DNA of 64,000 nt from Leptotrichia sp. oral taxon 223 (GTDB taxonomy: Bacteria; Fusobacteriota; Fusobacteriia; Fusobacteriales; Leptotrichiaceae), in the NCBI RefSeq assembly GCF_013394795.1, contig NZ_JABXYU010000001.1, forward strand, positions 1,364,001-1,428,000, given 5' to 3'. This document shows, piece after piece, positions 10,053-28,431 of the stretch. The translations under genes were made by a program, and so were the position numbers. How positions within the stretch are numbered: the first letter of the stretch is position 1; the number at the start of each line of letters is the position of its first letter. The notes beneath the pieces were generated by a model. That model saw nothing but the letters and a program-made list of their open reading frames with translations. It was not told where the DNA came from and ran no database searches.

Positions 10053-12134
10053 TTATTCTACTCCTAAAGCTTTAAATACAGCATCTTCTGCCGTGGAATA
10101 GAATATCAGGTTGAAAGCTACGATTAAATCTGATGGTACAGATGCCAAATCTGATGCTGAAGTTATTGGTAGCAGTATCTTTTTTGCTCCTGAATCCAGA
10201 CATACCTGTAATATATTTGCAAGTTCAGATACTTTTATTATCGTTCCACCTATACTTAAATTTCCTAAAATTACTGCACTTGAAACAACAGGTTTATTCA
10301 ATGCAGCTGAACAGATGGCAACTAAAGTAGCTAATGTTAAATCTGAAGTCATTCCTATACCTTTCATGTCTTGATAGTTAACCACATAGTCATTATTCAC
10401 TGTGCTTATACTTCCGCTTATGGATCTTCCATTAGCTTTTAAATATTTAAATGCTGTTTCAGCCGATTCTTTAGCATCCCTATTATTTCCCAATCCTGTT
10501 TTTTCAAATTTTCCTGTTCCTTTTGTTATCTGTGTTTCAATTTTAAACACTCCTATCATCCCATTTTTTCCATGAGAAACAGTATATAGGTGTCCTGCCT
10601 TTCCAATTCCTTCCGGAATAAGGCTTCCACTGCTCTGTTCAGGAACAGATACATATTCTTCATTAAAGTTATCATTACTGATATAGGAGAAATTTACATC
10701 ATAAAATTCCATTCCTCCTATTTTTTTAAGCTGCTCTTTTACTCTTCTTCTCATTTCAAGCGAAAATCTTAAAATTTTCTCAACATCTCTCTTTTCAAAT
10801 TTTCCATGAGGATAAATTAATTTTATCATTCCTGAAACTGTTCTTTTTACAGCTATAACATCCCTCTGATTTAACTGATTTCCAAGTCTAAAATATTTAT
10901 CATGAGCATCTGAATATGAAATTTTACGTAATTCCCGCATTATTTCAGCATAGTAGTCTGTTATAAATCCATAATTGTCAGTAAAAAATTCAGGTCGGTA
11001 TTTTGGAATTTCCCATCCTGGTAAGTAGCAATGCATTCTGTCTAAAAATGCCATATCTTGTCCCATTACATCTGGAAATGGATCAAATAAATGGGAAGTT
11101 TTTAAAAGAATATCTACACGCTGATTTATATTTCCAACAAAAACCATTCCTGCAGTAGCATTCTTTTCTTCCTTTCCTCTGGCAAATGAACCTGAAGCCA
11201 TATAATCCTTCATTATCTGAACTCCATCCTGATCCTTGAATTTTATTCCAGCAACTTCATCAAATGCAACACAATCCCACAATCCTACCAGACCCATTGT
11301 TCCTTTTCCCATATTATAGAATAAATTTGCTACCGTTGTCTGTCCTCCAGATACAAGTATACTATTAGGGCTTATTTCCTTATATACATGTGATTTTCCA
11401 GTTCCACGAGGCCCTAATTCACAAAAGTTATAATTATTTTCTACTAATGGAATTAATCTTGCCAAGTGAAGCCATTTAACCCTTTCATTGAATTTATCAG
11501 GTTCCATTCCTGTACTTCTTAAAATAATGTCTATCCATTCCTCATCAGTAAAGTTTTCCCTCATCTGCTTAAATTCTTCAAAGTCAATTTCAGGCATCTG
11601 TACTGGTGTTAATTTTCTTATTGTGACTGGATTTCTATTCTTGTCTCCTTCATCATAAAAATATTCCATCTGGACTATACTCCAGATACCTCCTCCAAGC
11701 AGTCTTTCATATTTTGATGGATAAGCATCAGATATTGGTATCCCTTTTAATGCCAGATTTGAAAATTCCGCTTCGTATCTATTCTCTCTTAAGTTAAGTT
11801 TTACCGTAACTTTGTCTATTACAGTATAAGATGCATTTTCTCTTAATTTTGATTTTATTTTTTCTGATTCATCTGGTCTGACATAATTTTCAGCCAGTAT
11901 TTTTTTAACTGTCTTCAATCCCTCTTCTATATCTTCATCATTTGTAGAAGAACAGTACATCCCTAGCAGATATTCCAATACATAAACTGGAACATTTGCT
12001 CCTTCTTTTATTTTCTTTGTCAAATCCTTTCTGACAATTTTTCCAGAAAAATATTTATATAATTTTGTATTTATTTCCTCTATGTTTTCATTTTGTTTTT
12101 CATCTGTCACTTTTCTATTATTTAGATCTTCCAT
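10053..12134 (-). CDS. brxL: BREX protein BrxL, AAA+ / Lon-like
   Basis: BrxL is the Lon-related AAA+ protein of type I BREX phage-defence systems. The 693-residue product has an N-terminal BrxL-specific domain (about 1-200). It then has an AAA+ core with Walker A GPRGTGKSH (241-249) and the acidic WDCVAFDEVAGIKF. A Lon-protease-like C-terminal domain follows, ending SGAKKILLPITSASDL and retaining a plausible Ser/Lys pair (GMTSDL...IGGTIIKV). It is the last gene of the operon, 42 bp after pglZ, with TTTTTCTCC (SD AGGAG-like) upstream of the ATG. The role is known from the BREX family; DNA-binding activity is described for homologues, not shown here. Confidence 0.95.
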   Translation of the reverse strand: MEDLNNRKVTDEKQNENIEEINTKLYKYFSGKIVRKDLTKKIKEGANVPVYVLEYLLGMYCSSTNDEDIEEGLKTVKKILAENYVRPDESEKIKSKLRENASYTVIDKVTVKLNLRENRYEAEFSNLALKGIPISDAYPSKYERLLGGGIWSIVQMEYFYDEGDKNRNPVTIRKLTPVQMPEIDFEEFKQMRENFTDEEWIDIILRSTGMEPDKFNERVKWLHLARLIPLVENNYNFCELGPRGTGKSHVYKEISPNSILVSGGQTTVANLFYNMGKGTMGLVGLWDCVAFDEVAGIKFKDQDGVQIMKDYMASGSFARGKEEKNATAGMVFVGNINQRVDILLKTSHLFDPFPDVMGQDMAFLDRMHCYLPGWEIPKYRPEFFTDNYGFITDYYAEIMRELRKISYSDAHDKYFRLGNQLNQRDVIAVKRTVSGMIKLIYPHGKFEKRDVEKILRFSLEMRRRVKEQLKKIGGMEFYDVNFSYISNDNFNEEYVSVPEQSSGSLIPEGIGKAGHLYTVSHGKNGMIGVFKIETQITKGTGKFEKTGLGNNRDAKESAETAFKYLKANGRSISGSISTVNNDYVVNYQDMKGIGMTSDLTLATLVAICSAALNKPVVSSAVILGNLSIGGTIIKVSELANILQVCLDSGAKKILLPITSASDLASVPSDLIVAFNLIFYSTAEDAVFKALGVE

Positions 12135-12176: not shown

Positions 12177-14708
12177 CTAAAAGCCAAAATCATCTGCAAA
12201 TAATACATCTATTATCATATTTTCCCTGATTTCTTCAATTTCAGATTCTTTATCCTTTACAATTAGATAATAGTCTTCATTTTTATTATATTTCTGATTT
12301 TTCAAGGTAAATTTAAACTTCTTTATTCTTTTTTTAGTCTCTCCTTCTTCACTGTCTGCCTTATAGCTTTCTATATTTGAAATTATATTATCATTGCCAT
12401 CAGTAAAGAAAATTGCAAATTCTGAAGGTTTTATAATATCTGTAACAGCTTCCTTCTGTAAAAATTCCAATGAAATTGCAAGACTTGTTATTTTTCTTAC
12501 TTCAGATATTAGACTTACCTTCACCTTTTCAGTATCTACCGCTCCTTTGGCAGTTCTAACTTTTACAACAGGAACTAACATTTCCTGCAATGAAATTCCT
12601 CCGTGATAGTAGTTCTGTCCGCCACCGCTTACTTTAAATATATTTGAAGTATTAGGAGAAAGTACTTTTAAAGTTTCTTTTTCATCGTTTAAAATTTCGG
12701 AAAGACCAATTTCATTTACTCCTATAATATCATAATCCTTTTCAGTAATTACATACCTCTTATTTATAATGTCATTTTCATCGAAAGAATTTTCTATTTT
12801 ATCAAATTCCTCTATTTTTCTTCTTTTATAAATAAACCCATGATCTGAAGTAACTATTATATTGTTAATTGATTCTACTCTCAATTTTTTTATGAGGTTC
12901 ATAATTCCATCCAAAGCCTCATGACATGCATCAAACACTTCATCTTCAGTATTTGCCTTATCACCTCTGGCATCTATCTGATTATGATATATATATACCT
13001 TCTTTTTATTCCTGAACATTTCCCTTACTTCATCTTTTGTAGCTTTAAAAACTTTATCAAAATCAAGTGCTACCGAATCTTCATCATATTCCTTCAGTAT
13101 CTTTTCCCTTTTTACTCTATCGTTACATGCTTTTCCATCTACAAGTACTGTAAAATCCTTTTCAGCTGTTTTTATTTCAATTTTTTCATGTGGGAGCAGT
13201 GAAGCCATACCTAACTTCGTAATTGAAGGAAGTATGCTTATCTGACTTTCCAACTCAGCACTCATTTTTTCATCTTTGTTCATTTTTCCGACTAATTCTT
13301 TTGCTATTTCATATCTAAAAGCATCTGAAATTATTACTACAATTCTATTTTTATTTGTTTCCACATAATTCTTATAAAAATTTTTCTGTAATTTTATTTC
13401 TTCTGGAAGATTATTATAATCTAGAAGCTCATTAAACTTTATATTTAATGGATTCAGAAAATTATCTGTATATTTCAGTTCAATTATTTTTGCCAGTTTT
13501 TCATATTTTTCACTTTTTTCTACCAGCTTATCATAGTAATAATAAAACTTTCTGTAATATGTATCAATCCAATAATATTCATTGTCATATGTTTTTATTA
13601 ATTCGTGTAGATTCCCAGAAAAATTAAATCCTGTATTTTTTATACTGTTATATGCATATTTTAATACTTTATATTCTATTTTTAGCTTGTCATTGCCATT
13701 ATTATTTTCCTGTCGTAATTTTATTATCTCCATGATGGATTTATCCTGCAATTTTGCTGAAAAATTTTCATCACATATTCTTTCAGCTATCCATTCTGTT
13801 ATCTTTTCATCAGGAAAATCAAAAATATCAAGCTCAAGAATATGTTCAGGTAAAATATTTTTAAAATATTTATCCTGTTTTATGTGTGAATATACTTCTG
13901 AAACAAGATTTTCAAAATCATTTTTATATTCAGAAATTTTTCGTAACTTGTTCAAAAATATTATAACTGTACTTTTTACATTTAATTTATTATATTTTTT
14001 TGGCATTTCCTTCGTAATTTTTTCAAATGTATAAGTCAAAAATATTCCAAGTAACAGTTTAGTTAAATTAGGTTCATCATCAATGTATCCAAACTGCAAT
14101 CTGCACATATCCCAGAATTTTTCTTCAAGATTATATTTTCTAAATTCTGCAAGATATTTGTTTTCCTTTCTGTTGGCATCTGTAATTAAAATTCTTGTAA
14201 TATCTTCAAAACCGTCAAATATTTCAGCTTTTGAACCAGTAATTGCCCTCATTAGGATGATTTCCATATCTTCTCTTATTGATGGTTTACTGTCATTAAC
14301 CAGTTTTTCAAACTTTTCCCTTCGGTCCTTCGCTTCAAAAAACTTTCTATGCTCTTCCATTACTCCCTTGAGTTCATCGTCTATTTGAAAATTCTGAGCC
14401 ATTATGGAAATCCAGTCTGTTAAAAACACCTTTGAATACATTATTGTATCAGCAAGATGATTTTCCCTATTTTCACTTCGTTTAAATGGAGCATATATTA
14501 AATAATTTGTTTCCTTTTCCTGTCTTTCAAGAAGCATTTTTGTTTTGAAAAGCTCATCCTGACGTAATACAAGCAGTTTTGCATTTTCCAGCTGCAATTC
14601 TTCAATTTCTGACAGAAATTCCTGTTTTTCATCATACCAGAAGACAAGTCTCCTTCCTTCTTTCTTAAATTCACTGTTAAGTGTATCTGTAATTTGTTCT
14701 AAATTCAA
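12177..14708 (-). CDS. pglZ: BREX protein PglZ, alkaline-phosphatase-superfamily
   Basis: Signature core protein of BREX. The 843-residue product starts MNLEQITDTLNSEF, followed by RRLVFWYDEK, the usual PglZ N-terminus. Metal-binding alkaline-phosphatase motifs are ISDAFRYE (about 460-467) and TSDHGF (about 620-625), then GGGQNYYHGGISLQEMLVP. I prefer the TTG at 14708: GGAG ends 8 nt before it, whereas the in-frame GTG at 14717 overlaps that site. A strong terminator lies directly upstream (14738-14779), so either read-through or a nearby promoter must supply transcription. In BREX, PglZ works with PglX, BrxB and BrxC. Confidence 0.95.
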   Translation of the reverse strand: MNLEQITDTLNSEFKKEGRRLVFWYDEKQEFLSEIEELQLENAKLLVLRQDELFKTKMLLERQEKETNYLIYAPFKRSENRENHLADTIMYSKVFLTDWISIMAQNFQIDDELKGVMEEHRKFFEAKDRREKFEKLVNDSKPSIREDMEIILMRAITGSKAEIFDGFEDITRILITDANRKENKYLAEFRKYNLEEKFWDMCRLQFGYIDDEPNLTKLLLGIFLTYTFEKITKEMPKKYNKLNVKSTVIIFLNKLRKISEYKNDFENLVSEVYSHIKQDKYFKNILPEHILELDIFDFPDEKITEWIAERICDENFSAKLQDKSIMEIIKLRQENNNGNDKLKIEYKVLKYAYNSIKNTGFNFSGNLHELIKTYDNEYYWIDTYYRKFYYYYDKLVEKSEKYEKLAKIIELKYTDNFLNPLNIKFNELLDYNNLPEEIKLQKNFYKNYVETNKNRIVVIISDAFRYEIAKELVGKMNKDEKMSAELESQISILPSITKLGMASLLPHEKIEIKTAEKDFTVLVDGKACNDRVKREKILKEYDEDSVALDFDKVFKATKDEVREMFRNKKKVYIYHNQIDARGDKANTEDEVFDACHEALDGIMNLIKKLRVESINNIIVTSDHGFIYKRRKIEEFDKIENSFDENDIINKRYVITEKDYDIIGVNEIGLSEILNDEKETLKVLSPNTSNIFKVSGGGQNYYHGGISLQEMLVPVVKVRTAKGAVDTEKVKVSLISEVRKITSLAISLEFLQKEAVTDIIKPSEFAIFFTDGNDNIISNIESYKADSEEGETKKRIKKFKFTLKNQKYNKNEDYYLIVKDKESEIEEIRENMIIDVLFADDFGF

Positions 14709-14737
14709 TTTTCTCACTCCATAATTTTTATATTTTT

Positions 14738-14794: not shown

Positions 14795-15397
14795 TTAAAA
14801 ATTATCTAACCTTAGTATCATTGTTCTTAATTTATTTTCTGAACTAAATTCTTTTATCAGATTAAATCCATAATTTGAATAAAATCTTATTAGTGAACTA
14901 TTGTCTTCACATTCTAACCATAAATATTTCGTATTTATAATTTTTTTCACAATTAATAATAATTCATGTGCCAATGATATTATTTCATTACCTGTTATCA
15001 TATTTTTATCAGAAATATTATAATTTTTCCCTATTTGTGCCAGCAAAAAACTATTCACAACATAACTTCCATCTTTCAATCTTCTTCCACTCTGTGAAAA
15101 TCTTTTCTGTTGTGTCTTACTAAGATTAAGAAAATTTTCTTTTTCAATAATTAAACTTTTATTTGCAAATGTAAAATACTCCAATATTTCCGTTCCCTCT
15201 TTATTGTAAATAATATGTGTCGCAGAAAGTGATTTTTTCTCAAAATCTATAGCTTTATTATGTAGAAAATCCTCAATACTATTTCTATTTCTACTTTTAA
15301 AAGTCTTTAAAATTTTTTCTTTTATAAAGTCATCGTCTTTCAATTTTTCTCTTAATTTCTGCAACGATATAGTTTCACTCTTTTTCCTTATATCCAA
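14795..15397 (-). CDS. GNAT-fold acetyltransferase, possible toxin of a two-gene module
   Basis: The 200-residue protein has a variable N-terminal half and a GNAT-like C-terminal half. LSATHIIYNKEGTEILEYFT and NSFLLAQIGKNYN correspond to the central sheet and acetyl-CoA region, and YLWLECEDNSSLIRFYSNYGF is the GNAT closing motif. The start appears to be a TTG at 15397, because no ATG occurs for more than 130 codons. It overlaps the upstream 60-residue gene by 23 bp. This arrangement, a small protein followed by an overlapping GNAT, is that of GNAT toxin-antitoxin pairs such as TacAT; a toxin role is inference. A terminator follows immediately. Confidence 0.7.
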   Translation of the reverse strand: MDIRKKSETISLQKLREKLKDDDFIKEKILKTFKSRNRNSIEDFLHNKAIDFEKKSLSATHIIYNKEGTEILEYFTFANKSLIIEKENFLNLSKTQQKRFSQSGRRLKDGSYVVNSFLLAQIGKNYNISDKNMITGNEIISLAHELLLIVKKIINTKYLWLECEDNSSLIRFYSNYGFNLIKEFSSENKLRTMILRLDNF

Positions 15398-15557: not shown

Positions 15558-15655
15558 AATTACCACTCTCCCTTTTTTAACTCTATTTTCATTTTTATGA
15601 TACCATATCTATTTTAGAGTGTCAATTAGATTTCAATTTTTTTCCAAATAACCTC

Positions 15656-16057
15656 TTATTTAATACACTTATACACAATAACATTAATAATACAAAATAT
15701 CACTAATATTAAATAAAGTAAAAATCTATTTTTATCAAAAAATCTCGTATCTCCACCTGTTTTCTTTATATTTTCTGACATTCCAATTTTAGAAAATTCA
15801 AAATAAATCCAGCTACCTAATGTTGACCAGTAAAAAGAAATAATTCCTTCCGATTCAAGCATTATGTAAAACCAAAACTGATATATCATATAAATTATTA
15901 AACCTAAAGTAAGAAACAACATCTCATTTTCTTTTCCTGTATCCTCTTTCGTTTTCTTTCTAAAGTATTCCATAATATAAATTATGCCTAAACCCAGACC
16001 ACCTGTAAGAAATACAGAAGCCATTAAAATTAATCCCATAATTAAATTTATAATCAT
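15656..16057 (-). CDS. small membrane protein of unknown function
   Basis: 133 residues with four likely membrane segments: about 4-29, 46-64, a weaker one at 72-88, and 110-130. Polar loops include EYFRKKTKEDTGKENE and KKTGGDTRFFDKNR. AAGGAAATTAAAA precedes the ATG. It lies between the S-4TM effector gene and the GNAT pair inside the BREX locus on the same strand. No family recognised. It might be an accessory of the CBASS-like pair or an independent passenger. Confidence 0.6.
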   Translation of the reverse strand: MIINLIMGLILMASVFLTGGLGLGIIYIMEYFRKKTKEDTGKENEMLFLTLGLIIYMIYQFWFYIMLESEGIISFYWSTLGSWIYFEFSKIGMSENIKKTGGDTRFFDKNRFLLYLILVIFCIINVIVYKCIK

Positions 16058-16177: not shown

Positions 16178-17053
16178 TCATTGATTTATATTTTTGGCAA
16201 CATTATCTTCTCTTTCTTGATTTTTTATATGATTTATTTTATAAAACCAATTTGGAATTTTATATATTTTTTTTCTTAATTCAAAAATTTTATTTTGTAA
16301 ATCTATTAATTTATCATAATTTTTTATTTCTATTAGCTCTTCTTCTATTATTCTACTCATTTTATTTATGATTTCAATTTTTTGTATATCATCATTTAAG
16401 TTATTTACAATGCTATGTAAATAATTTAAAAAACTTGGAATCCAAAGAATCAGCTTTAAAAAATTCTCATCTAATAAATTATTTATAAATATTGCTATTA
16501 AAATCAGAATTATATATACGCCATAAAGTGCTATATTACAAAGCATTTTATAATTTTTTATTTGCTCTAAATTCCAACTAATATTTTCTTTTTGAGAATA
16601 AAATATTTGTAAAATAGCCTCTTTTTTAGAATAATCACTATACCAATTTTTTACTTTTTCTTTTTCGATTTTTTTTTTGTCTATTTTACTAATTTCTTTT
16701 GATATTTCAGTTTTTCCTAAAAGTTTTCCCCATTTTTTTAAATTCTCATTTGTTACAGTACTATATAATTTTACATCAATATATTGTTGTATTTCTGCAG
16801 CTCTATTTTTTAATTTATTTGACATATTATTTATAAAACTATTAATAAGCGGTATAGATAATACCAAAACAACGTATAGTTTAAACATAATTATATTATT
16901 TTTAAATATACTAAATAAAGGAATAAGTATGATTGTAAATATAAATTTTACCATTCCCCATTGTTCTGATATACCATACAACTCTCTTTGTCTAACCAAA
17001 CATTTTAATATTTCACCTTCATTTTGTAATTCATATATACTTTTATTATTCAT
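16178..17053 (-). CDS. S-4TM (SMODS-associated 4TM) pore-forming effector-like protein
   Basis: The 291-residue product has the architecture of S-4TM effectors. There is an N-terminal helical region, a pair of transmembrane helices (about 38-50 and 56-75), a long Lys/Glu-rich cytoplasmic segment with KNWYSDYSKKEAILQIFYSQKENISWN (read in two parts), a second pair (about 175-195 and 203-222) and a coiled C-terminus. In CBASS such proteins open in the membrane on binding a cyclic nucleotide and kill the infected cell. The chosen ATG at 17053 overlaps the upstream CD-NTase gene by 8 bp (TATGAATAA), which implies coupling. The family call comes from the topology and the adjacent CD-NTase; ligand and activity are inferred. 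Confidence 0.78.
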   Translation of the reverse strand: MNNKSIYELQNEGEILKCLVRQRELYGISEQWGMVKFIFTIILIPLFSIFKNNIIMFKLYVVLVLSIPLINSFINNMSNKLKNRAAEIQQYIDVKLYSTVTNENLKKWGKLLGKTEISKEISKIDKKKIEKEKVKNWYSDYSKKEAILQIFYSQKENISWNLEQIKNYKMLCNIALYGVYIILILIAIFINNLLDENFLKLILWIPSFLNYLHSIVNNLNDDIQKIEIINKMSRIIEEELIEIKNYDKLIDLQNKIFELRKKIYKIPNWFYKINHIKNQEREDNVAKNINQ

Positions 17054-18032
17054 AATCAGGAAAATCCTCTCCAAAAATCTCTTTCCATTTTTTTATTGAT
17101 TTTTCATATTCTTTATTCCGTTCATATTCTATTGCTTCTGTAGCTTTTTCATAATGTTTTAAAGTTTTCTCTTTAATTATCTCTTTTTCATCATTTGATA
17201 AAGTATTTATATCTTCTTGTATTTCTTTCATATCTTTAACTATAAAAAAAATATTGTTTGAAATATATTGTAACAAATTCCTAAAATCTAAATCAACAAA
17301 ACCTTCTAATCTTCCTTGTTTTTCACAAAAATTAATAATCATAGTTTCTAAAAGATACGAGGATATTTTATGACCATTTTCCTTATTCCATTTTTTAGCT
17401 AATCTTATTAATTCAAGAACTTTCCCATTAAACTTCTGATTAACTTCCGTAACTTTTTCCTTATCTTTTCTTGGATCTGTTTTTTTCCAATTTCCACCTC
17501 CATTTGGAATTAAATAATAATTTTTTCCATTACTTTCTTCTACTGTAATAAAACATGGAACTATATCAAAAGACCAATCTTTCGATATTAAATTCAATAC
17601 TACAGCTTCAGAACGTCTATTTATTTCTGATTTTTTATACTCTCTAACATCTTTTAATTTGGTTTTAAATTTTTCTATAACTTTTATACTATTTAGAGTT
17701 CCATCAAGATTACTGCATTCTTTTTGATATTCATAAGACATATTTGCATTTATTTTAACATTATCCCAATTATCATTTGAATAATAAGTTGCTCCTGCTC
17801 CCATTAAACCTATCATTAAATCAATATCATCTAATTCTCTACATTTCGTTTTTCTTGCAAAAGAACCGAATTGTATATTTATATCTTTGTATAAATCAAA
17901 AAAATTATTTCCACTAAATTCTTGTATATTATCCAATAAATTATCTCTACTCTTTCTAGCTTTTTTTACCAATTCAGAATCTAAATTAACTTTTTCTTTC
18001 ATGAATTTATCAAATGCTTCACTTACTGTCAT
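17046..18032 (-). CDS. CD-NTase (SMODS) cyclic-oligonucleotide synthase, CBASS-like
   Basis: Nucleotidyltransferase of the CD-NTase/SMODS type, expected to make a cyclic di- or trinucleotide alarm signal on phage infection. In 328 residues it has GSFAR (56-60) followed by DDIDLM (Asp69 and Asp71) and a third acidic position in WSFDIVPCF (Asp156). This is the complete GS-x-DxD-x-D catalytic set. GGGNWKKTDPRKD at about 174-186 is typical of the SMODS group. It is directly followed by an S-4TM effector, giving a minimal two-gene (type I-like) CBASS. It sits 20 bp after pglX on the same strand, embedded in BREX. The specific product nucleotide is unknown. Confidence 0.88.
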   Translation of the reverse strand: MTVSEAFDKFMKEKVNLDSELVKKARKSRDNLLDNIQEFSGNNFFDLYKDINIQFGSFARKTKCRELDDIDLMIGLMGAGATYYSNDNWDNVKINANMSYEYQKECSNLDGTLNSIKVIEKFKTKLKDVREYKKSEINRRSEAVVLNLISKDWSFDIVPCFITVEESNGKNYYLIPNGGGNWKKTDPRKDKEKVTEVNQKFNGKVLELIRLAKKWNKENGHKISSYLLETMIINFCEKQGRLEGFVDLDFRNLLQYISNNIFFIVKDMKEIQEDINTLSNDEKEIIKEKTLKHYEKATEAIEYERNKEYEKSIKKWKEIFGEDFPDYE

Positions 18033-18052: not shown

Positions 18053-21000
18053 TTATTTTACCTTCCCCAATATCTCATACTTCTTCCCATCACGGCCAGT
18101 CTGCACTTTTTCATAATTGACCTTCACTCCGTCATCCAAATCAATCGAAATATATTCTGAAGACAAGTGATTCATCTTCTCATCAAATTGTTTACATTCA
18201 TCAAGCTGTAATTTTATCTTTTTCAGCTCCTGCTCAGCTTTTTTTCTGTTGTTATTACTTTCAATTTCATCCTTCAGAAAACTTGCCCTTCTTTCATAAT
18301 GTTTCTGTAGCTCATGTAAATATCCAATTCTAACTTTTGCTGTAGTCTGTTCATTATAACGGTGCATATAAATCAATGCCTTAAATCCATTTTTCTTCCC
18401 TGCATCATAAAGCCAGTAAATTGGTCTTTTTTTGTATCTTTTCAGATGATCGTCATAAAAACTTTTCAAGAAATATTCTCTTATAATATCTTTTGGAACA
18501 TCATTTTTATTAGACAAGGCCTGTGCGATAAATTTAAGATTTTCTTCAAGCGTTTCTTCTCCATAGACTGTTTTTACAAATTCTACAAATCTTGTAACAA
18601 TATCATCACTAAAATATTCACTGTCTGTAATTGGAATACAGTTATCTTCATCAGGGATAAATTTGATATATTTATTTTTATCAAATTCTCCTCCTGCAAA
18701 TGCAAGTCCTTCCTCATCAGGTGAATAACGCCCGAACATACATCCAAAAGCATAGGAAATAAATTGTTTTACAACATCTGCTTTTGTCAGAACATAGTTA
18801 TTCCCTTTAATTTCATCATTTATTTCATCATCTGTATCAAATATTTTAGCTATTGTTATATCTTTATCACTTACATCTGAAGTCAGTTCATCCTGCAGTC
18901 TATAAATATCAATAAAAATTCTATTTAATTCCTCTTCATTTTCCTTCAATTTTAAAAACTGATTATTTGTAAATTCTTTATATTGACTATATGCTTCTTC
19001 TATTAATGTTATTTGTGTTTTATCAATTTTCTTATTTTCAACATTCCCATTTTCTCCTATTTTTACATTATCAAATTCTTCCACATATCTTTCAATATTA
19101 ACCAATGGACTTACTTTAAAATCCCATGCCGTCTCAAATGTATTCCAGTCATATTTTGAGATTTTGATACAGTCATCAACTATTGAAATTACTTTTGGTT
19201 TTATTTTTTCGTTTTCTATAACTGGGAAATTAGAAAAATTACCAATTTGTAAATGAATAGTTGGATTTAAAATTTTAAATATGTAATCTGAAATTTTTGT
19301 AGACAATAATCCCAATACATATTTTAGTTTAAAAGTACTATCTGAAAATGCTGACATTCCTGTTACATCATGTATACTTCCTTCTTCTCTGTATCGTATT
19401 GCAAATCCTCCACTTGTTATATCAGACCAAGTAACTGCTTCTTTAAAATAATATTCTGTATTTTGTGGTCTTGATCTTAACTTCCCATTACCATCCTTAA
19501 AATTCCTTATTTCATTACCATTATTTTTCCAATTCACTAAATAATCGTAGTTTCCATACCATTGTCGTCTTTCTCCACCTTTATTATATGGATACCATTT
19601 ATATTCATTATTTTCTGTTTCAGTTATTGATTTTGTATTATAGCTTATTTTCTCTTCTTCCACTTCATACCACTGTCTTAAAAATCTATCATTATCTGCT
19701 GTCGCTAATCCTTGTTTTGGCTCTATTAGTTCAGAAGTTTTTATTCCTTTTTCAAAATCTTCCAACAAATTTTCACTAGCCCAATATCCTATTGGCATTC
19801 CTGGTATTTTTTCAAAGTTTTCTTTTGCTTTTCTAAAATAATATTTTTTATCTTTATTTTCTATCGTTTCTAAAAACTTATTTCTTTTATTTTTTTCTCC
19901 TGGAAAATCAACTAATCTTATATAGCTTCCCTTGAAGTTATTTATTTTATTTTTTCTTTGAATCCATATAGTTGTCTGTACTACTTCACCGCTTATTTCA
20001 TCGAAAGCTCTTGTTCCTAGATGTACCATATTCAGTGTTTCTATTAATGTCATTTTTTCCCTTAGTTTCTCATAACTTGATAAAAACATCCACCCATGCA
20101 TTGTAATCATTGAACAAAATCCATTTTTATCAGTTAAACTATTACATTTCTCAATAAACACAGCAAACATATCCATCTTACTATCTGGATAATTCTTTTT
20201 TGTATACTTTGATAGCTTGGAGTCCATTATTGAACTCCCCATATATGGTGGATTTGTTGCAACTACTTCATATTTTTTTGATAGTATTTCTGATGTTTTT
20301 ATTACATAATAAAATTTATTTTTTATTTCTTCTTTTTTTAATTCATCAAATAAATTATAGAAATCTGTATTTTCTATTTCTGATAATCTATTTTTTATTT
20401 CATTATAATCTATTTTTGGTGCTTCTATTAAGCTCCCATATTCTCTTGCATCTAAAAATGAATTATAAATTAAATCAAGTTCTTCTTTTATTTTATTATT
20501 TCCATTTGAAATAAAATCTATTATTTCTTTATTAATATCCTTACTTTCTTTTGTATAACAGATATTTAATTCCAATTTTTTAGAAAAAATTCTTTTATAA
20601 TATTCTCTTGCCTTCATCATTAAAGCAAAATATGCCAACTGATATGCTCTTTTATCTATATCAAGACCATAAATATTATTTTCCAGTATTGACTGAACAG
20701 CATCTCTGTTGGAATAACCTAAATTTGAATAAATATCCATTAATACATCAAAAGCGTAGACAAGTATATGTCCACTTCCCATACATGGATCTATTATTTT
20801 TATTTCTTCTAATTTCATTTTCTTATAATTTTCATTCAGTTTTTCCAGTTTACTTTCAATTTCTTCTTCCTGTTTTTCTCTTTTTACAAGAAATTTCCAT
20901 TTTTCCTCTAAATTTTCATTTGGATGTCCTTCCAGCCATAAATTCCCTAAACTATTTTCCACCATATATTTTACTATCCATTTTGGTGTAAATAACTGTG

Positions 21001-21769
21001 TCTTTGCAGGGATATCATCCTGTTCCACTTTTTTTCCTTTTTTAGTTTTTTGGTCTACTTCCTTTTTCTTTTCTTCATTATAATACTGATAAAGCCACCC
21101 AATAACCTCAATCTGTCCCTCTTTTTCCACATCAAAGCTCTCTTCAGGTACTTCATCCACTAACTTTCTCAAAATCCCCTCTTCATCATTTATCGAAATT
21201 GGCAAAAGCAACTCTGAATAATCTTCAGTTTCTTCAAATAATTCAGGCAATATTTCATTAAGTTTATTACATTTTTTTATAAATAAAAATTTGAAAAGCT
21301 CTTCTATTTTGTTCTCTTCTTTTAACTTATATACATAATTTTTTTCATCATTTGAAAATTCCAGGTCTGTATCAAATACTTCCCTTATTATTTGAGGTTC
21401 CCTGTCATTTTCCCTGTCAGAAGATAAAATTCTTATTCCATCAGGAATATAATCATTCACTTCCATAAATCTAATAGCAATAATTCTGTTAAACCAGGTA
21501 TATGCTATTTCCTCAACCAATTCATCAAAACATTTCTTAAAATCTTCATCTTTCTCTCTTGCTTTTAATACCTCAATTATTTTTTCCCTCTGTTTGACTT
21601 CCTTTTCATTAAATTCCTGTCCATTAATCTTCAGATAGTCGTCTTCTTTTACAGTTTCTTCTCCTGTCCCTTTTTCAGTAATCCCCATCAATTCCAATTT
21701 TCTTTTTATATCATCTTCCATTTTTTCTTTTGCATTTACTGCAAAATTTCTTAATGCGACTTTGTCCAT
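18053..21769 (-). CDS. pglX: BREX DNA methyltransferase PglX (N6-adenine)
   Basis: PglX methylates a non-palindromic adenine site on host DNA so that BREX can tell self from phage. The 1238-residue product has motif I DPCMGSGH (327-334) and catalytic motif IV NPPY (506-509), followed by a target-recognition region and a long helical C-terminus, the usual length for type I BREX. The ATG at 21769 begins MDKVALRNFAVNAKEK, like other PglX proteins. Oddly, the only good Shine-Dalgarno (AAGGAGG, 21811-21817) is about 41 nt upstream, with an 8-bp hairpin in between. That site directly serves an in-frame TTG followed at once by TAG. The frame is otherwise intact. Confidence 0.95.
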   Translation of the reverse strand: MDKVALRNFAVNAKEKMEDDIKRKLELMGITEKGTGEETVKEDDYLKINGQEFNEKEVKQREKIIEVLKAREKDEDFKKCFDELVEEIAYTWFNRIIAIRFMEVNDYIPDGIRILSSDRENDREPQIIREVFDTDLEFSNDEKNYVYKLKEENKIEELFKFLFIKKCNKLNEILPELFEETEDYSELLLPISINDEEGILRKLVDEVPEESFDVEKEGQIEVIGWLYQYYNEEKKKEVDQKTKKGKKVEQDDIPAKTQLFTPKWIVKYMVENSLGNLWLEGHPNENLEEKWKFLVKREKQEEEIESKLEKLNENYKKMKLEEIKIIDPCMGSGHILVYAFDVLMDIYSNLGYSNRDAVQSILENNIYGLDIDKRAYQLAYFALMMKAREYYKRIFSKKLELNICYTKESKDINKEIIDFISNGNNKIKEELDLIYNSFLDAREYGSLIEAPKIDYNEIKNRLSEIENTDFYNLFDELKKEEIKNKFYYVIKTSEILSKKYEVVATNPPYMGSSIMDSKLSKYTKKNYPDSKMDMFAVFIEKCNSLTDKNGFCSMITMHGWMFLSSYEKLREKMTLIETLNMVHLGTRAFDEISGEVVQTTIWIQRKNKINNFKGSYIRLVDFPGEKNKRNKFLETIENKDKKYYFRKAKENFEKIPGMPIGYWASENLLEDFEKGIKTSELIEPKQGLATADNDRFLRQWYEVEEEKISYNTKSITETENNEYKWYPYNKGGERRQWYGNYDYLVNWKNNGNEIRNFKDGNGKLRSRPQNTEYYFKEAVTWSDITSGGFAIRYREEGSIHDVTGMSAFSDSTFKLKYVLGLLSTKISDYIFKILNPTIHLQIGNFSNFPVIENEKIKPKVISIVDDCIKISKYDWNTFETAWDFKVSPLVNIERYVEEFDNVKIGENGNVENKKIDKTQITLIEEAYSQYKEFTNNQFLKLKENEEELNRIFIDIYRLQDELTSDVSDKDITIAKIFDTDDEINDEIKGNNYVLTKADVVKQFISYAFGCMFGRYSPDEEGLAFAGGEFDKNKYIKFIPDEDNCIPITDSEYFSDDIVTRFVEFVKTVYGEETLEENLKFIAQALSNKNDVPKDIIREYFLKSFYDDHLKRYKKRPIYWLYDAGKKNGFKALIYMHRYNEQTTAKVRIGYLHELQKHYERRASFLKDEIESNNNRKKAEQELKKIKLQLDECKQFDEKMNHLSSEYISIDLDDGVKVNYEKVQTGRDGKKYEILGKVK

Positions 21770-22068: not shown

Positions 22069-25000
22069 CTAAAATTCCACTTCCACAATCTCACTCTCTT
22101 CCAGTTCTTTTTCCAGTTTTTTTCTCAATTTTTCAAGATAACTTTCTATATCTTCTTTGCTTTGTATTTTCCATACTCTATCTTTATTTATTTTAGCAAT
22201 TCCTATTACTTTTGGTTTCTTTATTCTTATTGGAATTGCTGGACTTTCTTCTACTGCATCATCTGTTTTTAAGTTTACTCTTATTTCCTCTTCCTGTTTT
22301 TCAAATTCATCAAGAAGTTTACTTTTCAAATTTGAAGCTTCTTTGTCAAAAGTTTCTATTTCCCTTATATTTTCTGACTTTTCAGCATTTCTCAAAATTT
22401 CAGAAAAGCTTTCTTCAACTTTTTTAGTAAACTTTTCTTTTAATTCTTCATTTTCCGTATACAGTCTATCCAATGTTATTTCTTTTGTCTCTTTTATTTT
22501 CTCTAAAATGGGATTTCTTCTTTCAGATAAAATCTGATTATAATTTTCAGTAAATTTTTTATTTAATTCATTCAAATCCTTAATTTTATTGTATGGCTTT
22601 TTATCATTCAATATTTTATTTATATCTCTTACAATTTGTTCAATCTCTTCATCTGAAAAATAATTTTTAGAAACAGTATACTTTTCATACAGTTTAACAG
22701 ACTCATCCCATATATTTTTCTGTTCTCCGGCAAAAAACTTATCTATAGGTTCCACATCTTCAACATAATCACAGTAGTCATCTTCATGACCTAAAATCTC
22801 ATCGAATATTTCTCTTGTATCTTTCAATACAAGTATTCTTTTTAAAAGTCTTTCTCCATTTTCCAATACATCCTTGCCTGGATAATTTTTATTCTTATAA
22901 TTTCTTTCCAAATCTTCTATTTCAGTAAGTTTTGCCCTTGTCAGCTCTTTAAAATCCCTCACCATTTTATCTGTGTCTTCTGAATCAATACTTTTTCCAA
23001 ACAGTTCATCTGCTACAGTTTTCATTGCTCTTATGCTCTTGTTATCTATCTTTTCCTTTATTTCAAGATAAACTCTTTCTCCACTGTCTTTTTTTACAAT
23101 ACTTTCTATAATATTCTCAGAAGTTTCATTTAACAGGCTTAAGTTATTTCCATTTCTTTTAAGCTCTATTTCTCCATCTTTAAATGCTCTTGCAACTATC
23201 CATTCAATGTCTCTATCATTCCAACCAAAAGGAGCTTTTGAAAAGTAATCCTTTACTTCCTTTATATTTATTTTCAGTCCCTTGTCCTTTTTAAGTTTTA
23301 TATGATTTACAACTTCCTGTATTGCATTTACATTATCTTTTTTTCTTTCAGCAGTAATTAACGTATCTTCCCTATCTTCAAAAATTTCCCTTATATCGCT
23401 TTCTCCCATAGACTTTGTAATATAGTCCAGTTTGTTATATACTTTGTTTACTAATTTCCCTAATGCTTCTGTTATCTTGGTTTTATAGTCCTTTGCATTA
23501 AGAGAGAGGTTATTTCCTCCTACATAGTATTTCGCATTTCTAAGGGCCTCTTCCAGCATTCTTTCTGAACGTTCTATATGTTCCTTACGCTCTGTACTCT
23601 TTTTTTCCTTTATGATACTTCCTTGCGGTAAATCATCAGCCTCTCCTGATTTTAAGAATTTCTCTATTTTTATATCCATCTCTATTGCATTTATATAGAA
23701 ACTATTTTCTCCTAAATCAATAAATACTGAATTTTCCTGTGTACTTTTCATTAACAGGGAACTTTCATTTCCACTGTAATCAGAATTTGGAGTAACTATA
23801 TTTATTCCTATATCATATGTATCTTTCCCTCTTGCATTGTCATCAACTTTCTGATTAAAGGAGAAAGTATAATCTTTAAATTTAGGTGACTGATATTTTT
23901 TCTCTGAATAGAATTTATCAAATATTTTTTCTGAAATTTTTCTCAATATTTCATTCATATCCACATCAATTTTATCAATCATTTTCTCTACTTCCTGCTC
24001 TTCATTTGTCAGGAATATATACACATCTCCAGATTTTTGTACAAGTGTCTGTTTTATAAGTACATCTAGTGCTTCCTTAACCTTTTCCTTTAACACTATT
24101 CTATCTTCATTTATATCTTCAACCATTAATGTAGTAATATTTTCCAGTGTCCCCTTTATTTCCTTAACATACTTAATCATAAAAAGAACTTTAAGTACAT
24201 TCACATTAAAGCAGTTTTCTTTATTTTCAGAATTGATATAGCTGTTTTTCATAGCTCCTGTTATGATAACCGAATGTGAGTGATCCAGAAAACTTTGAAG
24301 TCCATCATAAAATTTATCGAAGGAAACAAGTACTCCTGTTTCATCTTCCTTATATTTTTCTGCTCCTTCCTTAAACATCGCAAGCATCGAACGCTCTCCT
24401 TCAGATAAATGTTTTCCGCTTGAGCTATGTTCACGAATAGAAGTCAGAACATGTGAAAGTATCTTAAACTGATAAGGAATAAAAGGATAAACTTTCTGAA
24501 AATCTTTTATATCTGAATAAATCTTCTTTTCAACTGTATCATCAAATAGAATAAGATTTCTTATTACTGATTCCTTTTCAGAATAAACTAAAGAAAGTTC
24601 CTTTTCAGCATATTCATTTTTTTCTAAAATTCTCTTTTTTATAACTTCTGACACATCTGTAGACGTTAAGCTGATTCTAGTTTTAAATCTACCCTGTATT
24701 TTAGAAAAATCATTTCCTTTTACTTTTGTAATAGAGTCTATAGCCTGCTGAGATGTTACTACTACCCATGCTTTTCCTTTACAATATACTCCTAAATCTT
24801 CTGTTACAGTTTGCAGATTCAGCATCAAATCAGTATTTTCTCCTATATACTGTCCAACTTCATCTACAAAAAATATTACATGATGATTATTTCCTTTTTT
24901 CTTAATATATTTATCAATCATTTTTGCAAAATCTTCTATCGAAATGGAATAGTCCTTTCTAGAAGATTCAATCCAGTTATTTGCTTCTTCTTCTGTCATA

Positions 25001-25650
25001 AATCCTATTTCTGCCAAGGCTTTTTTAACTTTGGAAGTTTCAAAGTTAAAATTATTTCTTCTCTCTTCCCAATTTTTTCTGGAAATTTCTTCAAATTTTT
25101 CTTTAAACTCCTCATATTTTCCAGCTGAAACCAGTTCCCTCTCTAAATCTGCCACATGTGGTTTTGGAGAGAATCCCTGCATTTCATTAAATACTTTCAA
25201 AAATACTTTCAGAATATCATCTTTCCCTTTATTTCCAGTACTTTCACTTTTAGAATCAATATTAAATAAAATAGAGTCTGTCGAAGTTTGACAAGCTCTT
25301 TTCATATCTGCAATAACCATTTCATCTTTTACTTTATTATCTTCCAAAAAATAATCAATTGCTTTTTTCCCATTAATTTCTTTATTTGAAAGCAGATAAG
25401 ATAGTATTTTCAACAAATGTGACTTCCCGCTTCCAAAAAAACCGCTTATCCAAACTCCCATATCATCTGTATTTCCACTAATTCCCTTACCATATGCTGA
25501 AAAAAAATCCCTAAAATGTTTCTGCAATTCATTTGTTACTACATATTCTTCCAGTTCCTGCTTTATATTTTCCTCTTCCTTCTGTCCTACTTTTATTACT
25601 CCTTTAATATCTCTGTCAATAGGTTTTTTAAACATCTCTCTTATTTTCAT
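22069..25650 (-). CDS. brxC: BREX P-loop ATPase BrxC
   Basis: Large ATPase essential to type I BREX. The 1193-residue product has Walker A GFFGSGKSH (70-78) near the N-terminus and a Walker B-like HHVIFFVDEVGQYI near residue 275. Long charged helical regions follow, consistent with the 1,200-residue BrxC family. The start MKIREMFKKPIDRDIKGVIKVGQ is characteristic. Its ribosome-binding site is weak (GAAGAG). It follows brxB with a gap of about 130 bp and precedes pglX by 300 bp. Confidence 0.95.
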   Translation of the reverse strand: MKIREMFKKPIDRDIKGVIKVGQKEEENIKQELEEYVVTNELQKHFRDFFSAYGKGISGNTDDMGVWISGFFGSGKSHLLKILSYLLSNKEINGKKAIDYFLEDNKVKDEMVIADMKRACQTSTDSILFNIDSKSESTGNKGKDDILKVFLKVFNEMQGFSPKPHVADLERELVSAGKYEEFKEKFEEISRKNWEERRNNFNFETSKVKKALAEIGFMTEEEANNWIESSRKDYSISIEDFAKMIDKYIKKKGNNHHVIFFVDEVGQYIGENTDLMLNLQTVTEDLGVYCKGKAWVVVTSQQAIDSITKVKGNDFSKIQGRFKTRISLTSTDVSEVIKKRILEKNEYAEKELSLVYSEKESVIRNLILFDDTVEKKIYSDIKDFQKVYPFIPYQFKILSHVLTSIREHSSSGKHLSEGERSMLAMFKEGAEKYKEDETGVLVSFDKFYDGLQSFLDHSHSVIITGAMKNSYINSENKENCFNVNVLKVLFMIKYVKEIKGTLENITTLMVEDINEDRIVLKEKVKEALDVLIKQTLVQKSGDVYIFLTNEEQEVEKMIDKIDVDMNEILRKISEKIFDKFYSEKKYQSPKFKDYTFSFNQKVDDNARGKDTYDIGINIVTPNSDYSGNESSLLMKSTQENSVFIDLGENSFYINAIEMDIKIEKFLKSGEADDLPQGSIIKEKKSTERKEHIERSERMLEEALRNAKYYVGGNNLSLNAKDYKTKITEALGKLVNKVYNKLDYITKSMGESDIREIFEDREDTLITAERKKDNVNAIQEVVNHIKLKKDKGLKINIKEVKDYFSKAPFGWNDRDIEWIVARAFKDGEIELKRNGNNLSLLNETSENIIESIVKKDSGERVYLEIKEKIDNKSIRAMKTVADELFGKSIDSEDTDKMVRDFKELTRAKLTEIEDLERNYKNKNYPGKDVLENGERLLKRILVLKDTREIFDEILGHEDDYCDYVEDVEPIDKFFAGEQKNIWDESVKLYEKYTVSKNYFSDEEIEQIVRDINKILNDKKPYNKIKDLNELNKKFTENYNQILSERRNPILEKIKETKEITLDRLYTENEELKEKFTKKVEESFSEILRNAEKSENIREIETFDKEASNLKSKLLDEFEKQEEEIRVNLKTDDAVEESPAIPIRIKKPKVIGIAKINKDRVWKIQSKEDIESYLEKLRKKLEKELEESEIVEVEF

Positions 25651-25778: not shown

Positions 25779-26357
25779 TTACTTTATCAATGGAAAAGCC
25801 CTGTAATAATTATCATCTTTAAATTCTCCAAATAATTCCAGTGACTGTCCATCATATTTTCCTGGATAAAACATCACTACTGGAGCTCTGTCAAAAATTT
25901 GATGCAGATTATTTAATATTTTATGCGAACGCACAAATGGAAATATTTTTCCAACTCCTGTTAAAAAGACAATAGCTTTTTCAGGTGTATTTTCTTCTAT
26001 ATATTCTGCAAAGTAATTGCTATCATCATTCATTCGAAGTAAATCATTTACAGACTCCAAAAGATAGTTCATTCCATCATTTTTTTCCATTTCAAAGCAG
26101 TCTTCCAGATAGCATTCAGATTCCAGCAGTTCAATCATCAGGTCATACACATCATAAACTTTCAGTTTATATCCATCTCCAAATTCCTTATCCTTTTTTA
26201 CTAACTTATCTATATATTCCCTTACAAGAATTTCATCTTTAGGATCATAATCGAAAACATAATATGCAACTTCATTTCCAAGTCCTTTACCATTTAAAAA
26301 AGAAGTCTTTCCTATTTCACTTTCTATTTTCCCTAAATCTATTTCTGTTTTTGTCAT
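25779..26357 (-). CDS. brxB: BREX protein BrxB (DUF1788)
   Basis: BrxB is a small core BREX protein; homologues contact PglZ and are required for defence and methylation. The 192-residue product matches DUF1788 in length and in the stretches NEVAYYVFDYDPKDE, KAIVFLTGVGKIFPFVRSH and APVVMFYPGKYDGQSLELFG near the C-terminus. The ATG overlaps the brxA stop codon as TAATG, with AAGGAGAAG upstream, so the two are translationally coupled. Confidence 0.94.
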   Translation of the reverse strand: MTKTEIDLGKIESEIGKTSFLNGKGLGNEVAYYVFDYDPKDEILVREYIDKLVKKDKEFGDGYKLKVYDVYDLMIELLESECYLEDCFEMEKNDGMNYLLESVNDLLRMNDDSNYFAEYIEENTPEKAIVFLTGVGKIFPFVRSHKILNNLHQIFDRAPVVMFYPGKYDGQSLELFGEFKDDNYYRAFPLIK

Positions 26358-26959
26358 TACACTTCTCCTTTTAATGTTTTTATGTACATTTCCATATTAT
26401 TTTCCCTTAATAATTTTTCCAGCTCATAATCCAAATAAACTTTTCTATATAATATCTCTTTGTTTTTTTCCTCAAGTAAACCTGCTTCTTTTAAATAATT
26501 TCCATATGTGCCTTGCATTCTTTTCAGTGTTTTTTCACTAAACTTTGCTACGTCTTCATTTTGCTCTGCTTTTTCCTTCAGAAACTTCATAACGATACCC
26601 GGATTATATTCCTTTGTTCCAAGCAACAGTTCATTTCTGTATGAATTGTATACATATTCAAAAAATAATTTATCAGTTCCCATTATAGATAAAAGATTTA
26701 TTACTTTTTGAGTTCCCGTATCACTTTCAAAAAATAGTTCCTTTATTTCTTTTGGAAGTACTTTTATTCTTTTATTTATCTCGCTTATAATTCTTTTTCC
26801 ATAATCTTTTGACGGTGCAGAAAAAATATTTTCTTCATCTTGTAATTCTTTAATTTCACTTTCGCTTTTTCCCTCTATCAAAAGTTCCAAAAATTTCTTA
26901 AATTCCAAAAACCAAAATCCCTTACTTACAATTCCTGCACTATATTCTTTTTTTCTCAT
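26357..26959 (-). CDS. brxA: BREX protein BrxA (DUF1819)
   Basis: First gene of the BREX operon. BrxA is a small helical DNA-binding-type protein (DUF1819). The 200-residue product contains YSAGIVSKGFWFLEFKKFLEL at the N-terminus (quoted here only to show the family signature), TGTQKVINLLSIMGTDKLFFEY and QGTYGNYLKEAGLL. GAAAGGATAAAA precedes the ATG. Its upstream region is the segment flanked by 22-bp inverted repeats. In the orientation given I see no strong promoter pointing at brxA, which suggests a low-expression state. Confidence 0.93.
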   Translation of the reverse strand: MRKKEYSAGIVSKGFWFLEFKKFLELLIEGKSESEIKELQDEENIFSAPSKDYGKRIISEINKRIKVLPKEIKELFFESDTGTQKVINLLSIMGTDKLFFEYVYNSYRNELLLGTKEYNPGIVMKFLKEKAEQNEDVAKFSEKTLKRMQGTYGNYLKEAGLLEEKNKEILYRKVYLDYELEKLLRENNMEMYIKTLKGEV

Positions 26960-27086
26960 TTTTATCCTTTCAGATTATTAATTTTCAACAAAGTTTGTTA
27001 CTTAATTCTTTATGTAAGGATATTCAATTACTAGACTTTTACAATTTTGTTTAATATTTGTTTTTATTAAATTATTTTTTAGGAAC

Positions 27087-27218
27087 GTCGTGATTTTTTG
27101 GAAATAAAATTGACTGTTTGAGCGAAGTTTAACGTAGCGAGTTTCAATTTTGTTTTCAAAAAATGCTTAGACAAGCGGGGATTGTAAAGGGGATGGCGAT
27201 TGATCCCCTTTACTTTAT
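27087..27218 (+). repeat. structured dispersed repeat, copy 1
   Basis: Copy of an element also present at 47785-47908. It has a 20-bp stem (GGAAATAAAATTGA / TCAATTTTGTTTTC core), a small hairpin GCTT-AGAC-AAGC and an 11-bp hairpin GTAAAGGGGAT/ATCCCCTTTAC. It differs from copy 2 by an extra TTTAACGTA in loop 1 and by paired substitutions in the stems. Confidence 0.8.
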
Positions 27219-27343
27219 AAAAAAGAAAAAATATAAAAATTATAGGAAGAATATTTATTAACAATAAAAAATAAGATTTAGTAGAAAAGACTATTAATTT
27301 CATTTGTATAGTATGAAAAAAATAACAAAAATATATGATTTTA

Positions 27344-27352
27344 TGGTATAAT
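27344..27352 (+). promoter_or_regulatory. extended -10 promoter inside the invertible segment
   Basis: TGGTATAAT, 22 bp inside the right inverted-repeat arm and pointing at the recombinase gene; the -35 region is weak. After inversion it would lie about 70 bp upstream of brxA and point at it. Confidence 0.6.
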
Positions 27353-27459
27353 ACTTAGTGAAATAAATTTTATGAATTAAGTAACAAACTTTGTTAAATT
27401 TACTAAACATTTTTCCAATAATTTAGTAAAATATAAAAAACTAAATTTAGGAGGAAAAT

Positions 27460-28431
27460 ATGACTGCAAAAAAACATTTAAACAAGAATTTGAAGTACGG
27501 GGAATGGCTGGATGTTTGGCTTGAAAGAGAAAAAAGTTTTATTAAGGAGTCAACTTATGCGGCTTATACAAATATTATTGAAAATCATTTAAAGCCTGTA
27601 TTTGGGAAAAGGAGAATTGGTGATATTACAAATGAAGATTTACAAAATTTTATTCTTTTAAAATTAAATGCCAATAAAAAAGATTTAGAAAAAGGACTTG
27701 CGCTAAAAACGGTCAAGGATATGGCGTCGCTTGCAAAAAGCACCTTAAATGCGGCAATTCAAAATAAATTAATACCATTTCAGAATTTTCACTATAAATT
27801 TCCTGTTTCTTCCACAAAATTATATTTAAAGACTTTTACTAATTCTGAACAGAAAATACTTTTTAATTATCTTATTTCCCATCAGAATTCAAAGAATCTA
27901 GGAATCTTACTCTGTTTGCAGACAGGGTTACGGCTAGGGGAAATATGCGGGTTACAGTGGAAGGACATAGATTTTGAAAAGCGTACCCTGACAGTTTGCA
28001 GAACTTTACAAAAAATTTATATAAAGAAAAAAGATAAATCCTGTTCAAAAGTCATTATTAGCACGCCAAAAACTAAATATTCAAATCGTCAAATCCCTCT
28101 TAGTAACGAATTTATAAATTTAATAAAATCATTTCAGCAAAACGAAAATTACTATTTTATAACGAACGGCAAAAATTATCTAAAACCTCACTGTTATCGA
28201 TATTATTATCAAAAACTCCTCCATTTCCTGACTCTCCCGAAACTTACATTTCACAGCCTTCGCCACACTTTTGCCACTCAAGCCATCGAACTTGGAATCG
28301 ACTGCAAGACTGTTTCAGAAATTTTAGGGCATTCCAGCGTAAACACCACTTTAAATTTATACGTCCATCCCAAAACCGAACATAAACGTAAATGTCTTGA
28401 CTTAATTTACCAAAATCTTAAAGGCAGGTAA
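27460..28431 (+). CDS. tyrosine recombinase (integrase family)
   Basis: Site-specific tyrosine recombinase of 323 residues. There is an N-terminal SAM-like DNA-binding domain (residues about 10-110), then the catalytic domain with the full set: Arg in TGLRLGEI, Lys in STPKTKYSNRQIPL, HSLRHTFATQ (HxxR), LGHSSVNTTLNLYVHP (His and nucleophile Tyr). The start has AGGAGGAAAAT upstream. It is divergent from brxA across the 22-bp inverted repeats and is a clear paralogue of the 60.4-kb recombinase. A phage-like excisionase or other mobile-element genes are absent, so a local DNA-inversion role fits better than prophage integration. Confidence 0.92.
   Translation: MTAKKHLNKNLKYGEWLDVWLEREKSFIKESTYAAYTNIIENHLKPVFGKRRIGDITNEDLQNFILLKLNANKKDLEKGLALKTVKDMASLAKSTLNAAIQNKLIPFQNFHYKFPVSSTKLYLKTFTNSEQKILFNYLISHQNSKNLGILLCLQTGLRLGEICGLQWKDIDFEKRTLTVCRTLQKIYIKKKDKSCSKVIISTPKTKYSNRQIPLSNEFINLIKSFQQNENYYFITNGKNYLKPHCYRYYYQKLLHFLTLPKLTFHSLRHTFATQAIELGIDCKTVSEILGHSSVNTTLNLYVHPKTEHKRKCLDLIYQNLKGR

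Follow-up and report, generated by a model that had tools for sequence, protein, structure and literature searches.

Within a 64,000-nucleotide stretch of the Leptotrichia sp. oral taxon 223 genome (the window, i.e., the whole stretch of DNA that was analysed), a short segment bounded by inverted repeats separates brxA, the first gene of a bacteriophage exclusion (BREX) operon, from a divergently transcribed tyrosine recombinase gene. We propose that the locus is best explained as a defence inverton, i.e., a recombinase-driven invertible-promoter switch, a reading to which we assign a probability of about 0.83. In relatives, the same segment is found reversed or beside other defence systems, and defence therefore appears to be switched by DNA flipping. 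In the proposed mechanism, the recombinase would recombine the two repeat arms and flip the 365-bp segment between them. In the ON orientation, an extended -10 promoter within the segment would drive brxA-brxB-brxC-pglX together with an embedded gene pair of the cyclic-oligonucleotide-based antiphage signaling system (CBASS). In the present orientation this promoter would read into the recombinase, leaving the defence operon without a good promoter and OFF or low. The window thus probably shows the defence OFF state, and both states may coexist within a population, with a possible bet-hedging role.

An inverted repeat brackets a predicted promoter between brxA and the recombinase

The two repeat arms lie at 26987..27008 (brxA side, forward strand; AACAAAGTTTGTTACTTAATTC, with the core AAGTTTGTTACTTA) and 27374..27395 (recombinase side, reverse strand), the right arm being a perfect reverse complement of the left. 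They are 365 nt apart and enclose the putatively invertible segment at 27009..27373, which is reversed relative to brxA in the genome of a relative, G007 (G000 being the 2.58-Mb Leptotrichia genome that holds the window, and the other G-numbers the genomes of relatives). A preliminary description of this DNA had reported a perfect 22-bp inverted repeat between the divergent genes, which we confirmed: the arms are complementary at 22/22 positions and unique within the genome, even when 3 mismatches are allowed. A chance origin was rejected, since no exact inverted repeat at 40-2000 nt exceeded 20 bp when the window was replaced by 100 order-3 Markov sequences modelled on it. The window itself has just one other inverted repeat of at least 16 bp, a 16-mer composed entirely of A and T.

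The segment contains an extended -10 element, TGGTATAAT (27344..27352, forward strand), which here aims at the recombinase and in G007 faces brxA. As TGNTATAAT is not rare by itself (11 occurrences in the 64-kb window versus 6.5 expected), support for this promoter comes from its conservation: TGGTATAAT is identical in all five copies of the module. Its -35 is poor, and a promoter scan demanding a -35 match fails to detect it. Using an approximate weight matrix, it scored 6.87, and the best leftward candidate, TTGTAA-16-TATCCT (27017-27022), scored 6.06, both near the 99.5th percentile of background. The element had been described as the only good promoter in the segment, pointing away from brxA; its direction stands, and its exclusivity is fair yet unproven at 6.87 versus 6.06. 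When we flipped the segment in silico, the -10 fell at 27030-27035, facing brxA from 71 bp upstream of its ATG, which bears out the ~70 bp expected earlier and compares with an actual 70 bp in G007. In G006 and G015, where the BREX operon has no module, a fixed TGATATAAT promoter is directed at brxA from a comparable distance, as expected if the operon needs a promoter there.

The segment is found in both orientations among relatives

Flipped copies were found by a DNA search of the family, followed by a second search with the module-specific part. G007 carries an orthologous BREX operon (brxA 93% identical) in which the segment is reversed and both outer flanks, the brxA leader and the 5' flank of the recombinase, remain collinear; the far arm is followed first by the leader of the recombinase gene and next by what remains of the recombinase C-terminus. 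Flipping 26987-27395 in silico raised the alignment score to G007 from 133 to 758, with 464/553 columns identical. The orthologous brxA locus is thus found in both orientations, in a comparison between species. Because 4 nt are missing from its arm on the brxA side, the G007 segment is probably locked.

A second pair, G005 and G009, has a type III-like operon in common and likewise differs in orientation. In G009 the promoter end points toward the recombinase, and in G005 it faces the defence gene; the recombinase of G005 is reduced to a C-terminal remnant next to ffh. Together with the repeats that span the genes of distant recombinase relatives (see below), the G007 and G005 flips support the recombinase-driven phase-switch layout originally suggested.

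The arms themselves also speak for recombination. A comparison of G000, G006 and G009 revealed that an exact 14-bp core is common to both arms within each intact locus, the arms being imperfect outside it. G000 and G006 have AAGTTTGTTACTTA as the core of either arm, and G009 has AAGTTTATTACTTA; the core's sole variable base (TTGTT or TTATT) is altered in both arms jointly, as recombination between the arms would require. Judging by sequence, the recombinase and its adjacent repeats are conserved together, and loss of the recombinase goes with decay of the arms.

The module accompanies several unrelated defence systems

Nor is the switch specific to BREX. In G006 the module adjoins a divergent type I restriction-modification (R-M) operon (HsdM, HsdS, HsdR), and in G009, as in G005, a type III-like operon, which in G009 encodes an HKD/SNF2 helicase, a DUF4391 protein and a Mod-type methyltransferase. 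Across G006 and G009, the non-coding part of the module aligns with 92% identity over 477 bp, exceeding the identity of the recombinase coding sequence. More distant builds are also found: in G017 (recombinase 55% identical), a separate 23-bp repeat bounds 126 bp adjoining a type III-like system, and ATGGTATAAT within it aims at the recombinase; in G020 (53% identical), a 29-bp repeat encloses the recombinase, and TTGACA-16-TATAAT faces hsdR. Among ten other brxA loci in the phylum, nine lacked an exact 15-bp repeat; these nine include G007, with its one decayed arm.

Taken together, we consider it fairly likely that a portable defence inverton, a single recombinase-repeat-promoter module, serves at least three unrelated defence systems in Leptotrichia (BREX with CBASS, type I R-M and the type III-like methylase/helicase), its promoter alternating between recombinase and defence operon, and that loss of the recombinase can lock it ON. 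Two side observations concern further loci. In G017 (L060, 2330-3622), a reverse transcriptase gene lies 3' of the type III-like methyltransferase, in what is probably a switched operon. In G010 (L062, 9497-18140), a recombinase inside a 20-bp inverted repeat adjoins a double-GTPase / HSP70 / HSP70-VWA operon, which may be another switched system.

The recombinase resembles DNA invertases

The recombinase (27460..28431, forward strand; 323 aa; Phage_integrase, 1.1e-27) is followed by ffh. Its catalytic set R-K-H-R-H-Y is complete (R158, K204, H265, R268, H291 and Y301) and invariant in seven aligned sequences. The recombinases of G006 and G009 are 81% and 78% identical to it (78-81% nucleotide identity across the coding sequence), with a ratio of nonsynonymous to synonymous substitutions (dN/dS) of about 0.1; the values against the G006 copy (dN 0.11, dS 0.99) indicate purifying selection.

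Among relatives with 33-45% identity and enough flanking sequence, 48/71 have their recombinase gene spanned by exact repeats of 15 bp or more, versus 0/21 for other tyrosine recombinases of the Leptotrichiaceae, which served as controls. The enzyme therefore looks like a member of a DNA-invertase family. Many arms in the distant relatives contain a dyad with a centre of 5-7 bp, which is what one would expect of a tyrosine-recombinase crossover site. Their sampled neighbours comprise glycosyltransferases, a polysialyltransferase-like protein, flanking TonB receptors, and pilus and sensor genes. Defence homologs gave few matches beside them, and the defence cargo therefore appears to be a feature particular to the Leptotrichiaceae. 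In one Muribaculaceae locus (L128, 5642-7089), a recombinase segment bounded by repeats separates two divergent TonB-receptor genes and is likely an either/or promoter switch.

The window encodes a second recombinase of this family (60397-61380, 47% identical); at least seven genomes of Leptotrichia have conserved it, with a gene for a bacterial sugar transferase as its neighbour. We found no inverted repeat just upstream of it, and it may act on a surface-polysaccharide locus.

Inner repeat and origin of the segment

The inner part of the segment (27087..27267) is a copy of a dispersed intergenic repeat of ~180 nt with two strong hairpins, which occurs in many copies in most Leptotrichia genomes searched; the query gave 27 matches in G000, most of them to 27087-27267, and similar numbers in relatives. 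This part folds with z = -4.4 on either strand. Since the hairpins belong to a genus-wide repeat, we rejected them as a module-specific RNA, and no known RNA family matched in the region. They may nevertheless insulate transcription on one side of the segment from that on the other. A phage or viral origin was likewise rejected: the region has no match in phage records, the module DNA is absent from viral contigs, and viral relatives of the recombinase reach at most 33% identity.

The switch probably controls part of a BREX operon with an embedded CBASS pair

All genes of the cluster are read leftward (reverse strand), from 26959 to 10053, in the order brxA, brxB, brxC, pglX, CBASS cyclase, four-transmembrane (4TM) effector, two small genes, pglZ and brxL. 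The type 1 BREX set is complete: brxA (26357..26959; BrxA, 1.1e-46), which would be the first gene under control of the switch, brxB (25779..26357; BrxB, 6.9e-43), brxC (22069..25650; NF033441, 1239.7 bits), the BREX-1 methyltransferase gene pglX (18053..21769; NF033452, 1384.8 bits), the BREX-1 type A gene pglZ (12177..14717; TIGR02687) and brxL (10053..12134; BrxL_ATPase, 3.6e-144). The CBASS pair, consisting of a CD-NTase-type nucleotide cyclase (17046..18032; SMODS; PADLOC Cyclase, 1.3e-130) and a 4TM membrane effector (16178..17074; S_4TM, PF18159, 6.8e-36), sits between pglX and the pglZ-brxL end. In those parts of the G006, G007 and G015 BREX loci that were examined, no match to the cyclase was found. 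The first of the two small genes (15656-16057) encodes a small membrane protein and the second (14795-15397) a protein that may be acetyltransferase-like; neither has a family match. In G005 and G009, counterparts of both are found close to the type III-like system; that of 14795 is also found near the type III-like system of G017, and that of 15656 also adjoins pglX in G015.

The preliminary description had the whole BREX operon under the switch, which appears too broad. A second strong promoter, TTGACA-17-TGnTATCAT (reverse strand, near 15602; approximately 15576..15630, with rounded coordinates), lies upstream of 14795, pglZ and brxL; it scored 14.4, the top among the operon gaps, which suggests that these three genes form a second transcription unit. 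The switch would thus probably control brxABC-pglX and the CBASS pair, and probably not pglZ-brxL. The BREX system of B. cereus is similarly arranged in two operons (PMC9122589), like the two units proposed here.

Concerning the wider neighbourhood, the interval between thrS and ffh holds BREX in G000 and a HamA/helicase (Hachiman-like) pair in G014 (L073, 3347-7391), and the type III-like system of G005 adjoins ffh; the interval is likely a defence hotspot.

Weighing alternative explanations

Several points weigh against the inverton reading. The -35 of the TGGTATAAT promoter is poor, brxA at present has a weak leftward candidate directed at it that scores about as well, and pglZ and brxL probably have a promoter of their own. 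Furthermore, G007 and G000 are different species, and the flip between them was possibly a rare ancestral event. Finally, the four loci whose recombinase is intact and lies outside the segment (G000, G006, G009 and G017) share one orientation, with the promoter toward the recombinase, and both flipped loci (G007 and G005) have no intact recombinase (4:0 versus 0:2, one-sided exact p = 1/15). G020, of a different build, is in the ON orientation with its recombinase intact. With so few loci, a preference for OFF cannot be told from loss of the enzyme at ON loci.

This orientation pattern is what one would expect if the recombinase flipped the segment in ancestors and each strain is now fixed in one state, an explanation that we regard as unlikely. 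The arms in the window are perfect, the recombinase retains a full active site and a low dN/dS, and arms decay where the recombinase is gone, all of which argue for an active switch. One could also envision that the inversion is real and mainly regulates the recombinase, which the promoter drives in the present orientation, with brxA adequately transcribed either way, for instance from the weak leftward TTGTAA-16-TATCCT candidate. We find this very improbable: three kinds of divergent defence operon have this arrangement beside them, in G007 and G005, which have lost the recombinase, the promoter end is turned toward the defence gene, and the hairpin-rich repeat would impede read-through. Least credible is a small mobile element that has this recombinase as its integrase and the repeats as its ends or attachment sites, the promoter being incidental: integrases (e.g., 6emy_A, 'Int protein') are the solved structures closest to the recombinase in sequence and the module adjoins differing cargo in differing genomes, yet no other mobile-element genes adjoin it, the repeats are inverted rather than direct, G007 keeps both outer flanks with the inner segment alone reversed, and the wider family has repeats around its own gene.

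Discussion

Short promoter-bearing invertible segments between inverted repeats, with a recombinase nearby, are known from fim of E. coli (296 bp) and mad of Photorhabdus (266 bp) (PMC5903667). The layout here is alike; those segments control surface structures, whereas this one would control an intracellular phage-defence operon. The invertible segments that we found in Ruminococcus, Bacteroidales and Bacilli involve the same recombinase family, and many of their repeats contain internal dyads; there the repeats enclose the recombinase, whereas in the window it lies outside the segment, and their sampled neighbours are the glycosyltransferase, TonB-receptor, pilus and sensor genes mentioned above.

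Defence loci rearranged by site-specific recombinases are also known, namely the hsdS inversions (PsrA, S. pneumoniae) and the hsd inversion of Mycoplasma pulmonis, as cited in PMC11892184. These mostly alter target specificity by moving coding parts of hsdS, whereas here a promoter would flip with the coding sequence untouched. For Pgl/BREX systems, phase variation of pglX has been described (PMC9122589), such that BREX-type defence is expected to be phase variable, as proposed here; that variation concerns the PglX coding sequence, in contrast to the promoter of the brxABC-pglX unit. Among the 5.39 million open papers searched, none was found to describe a BREX system with an invertible promoter; subscription papers may contain an earlier mention.

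Most of the invertible promoters described so far serve surface structures, and inversions in R-M systems largely exchange specificity. In the present case, a switch that turns expression on and off would be joined to BREX and CBASS, and its module reused on unrelated defence systems. The idea that costly defences are a heterogeneous trait of the population becomes directly testable, and a genome that lists a defence system may stem from cells that do not express it.
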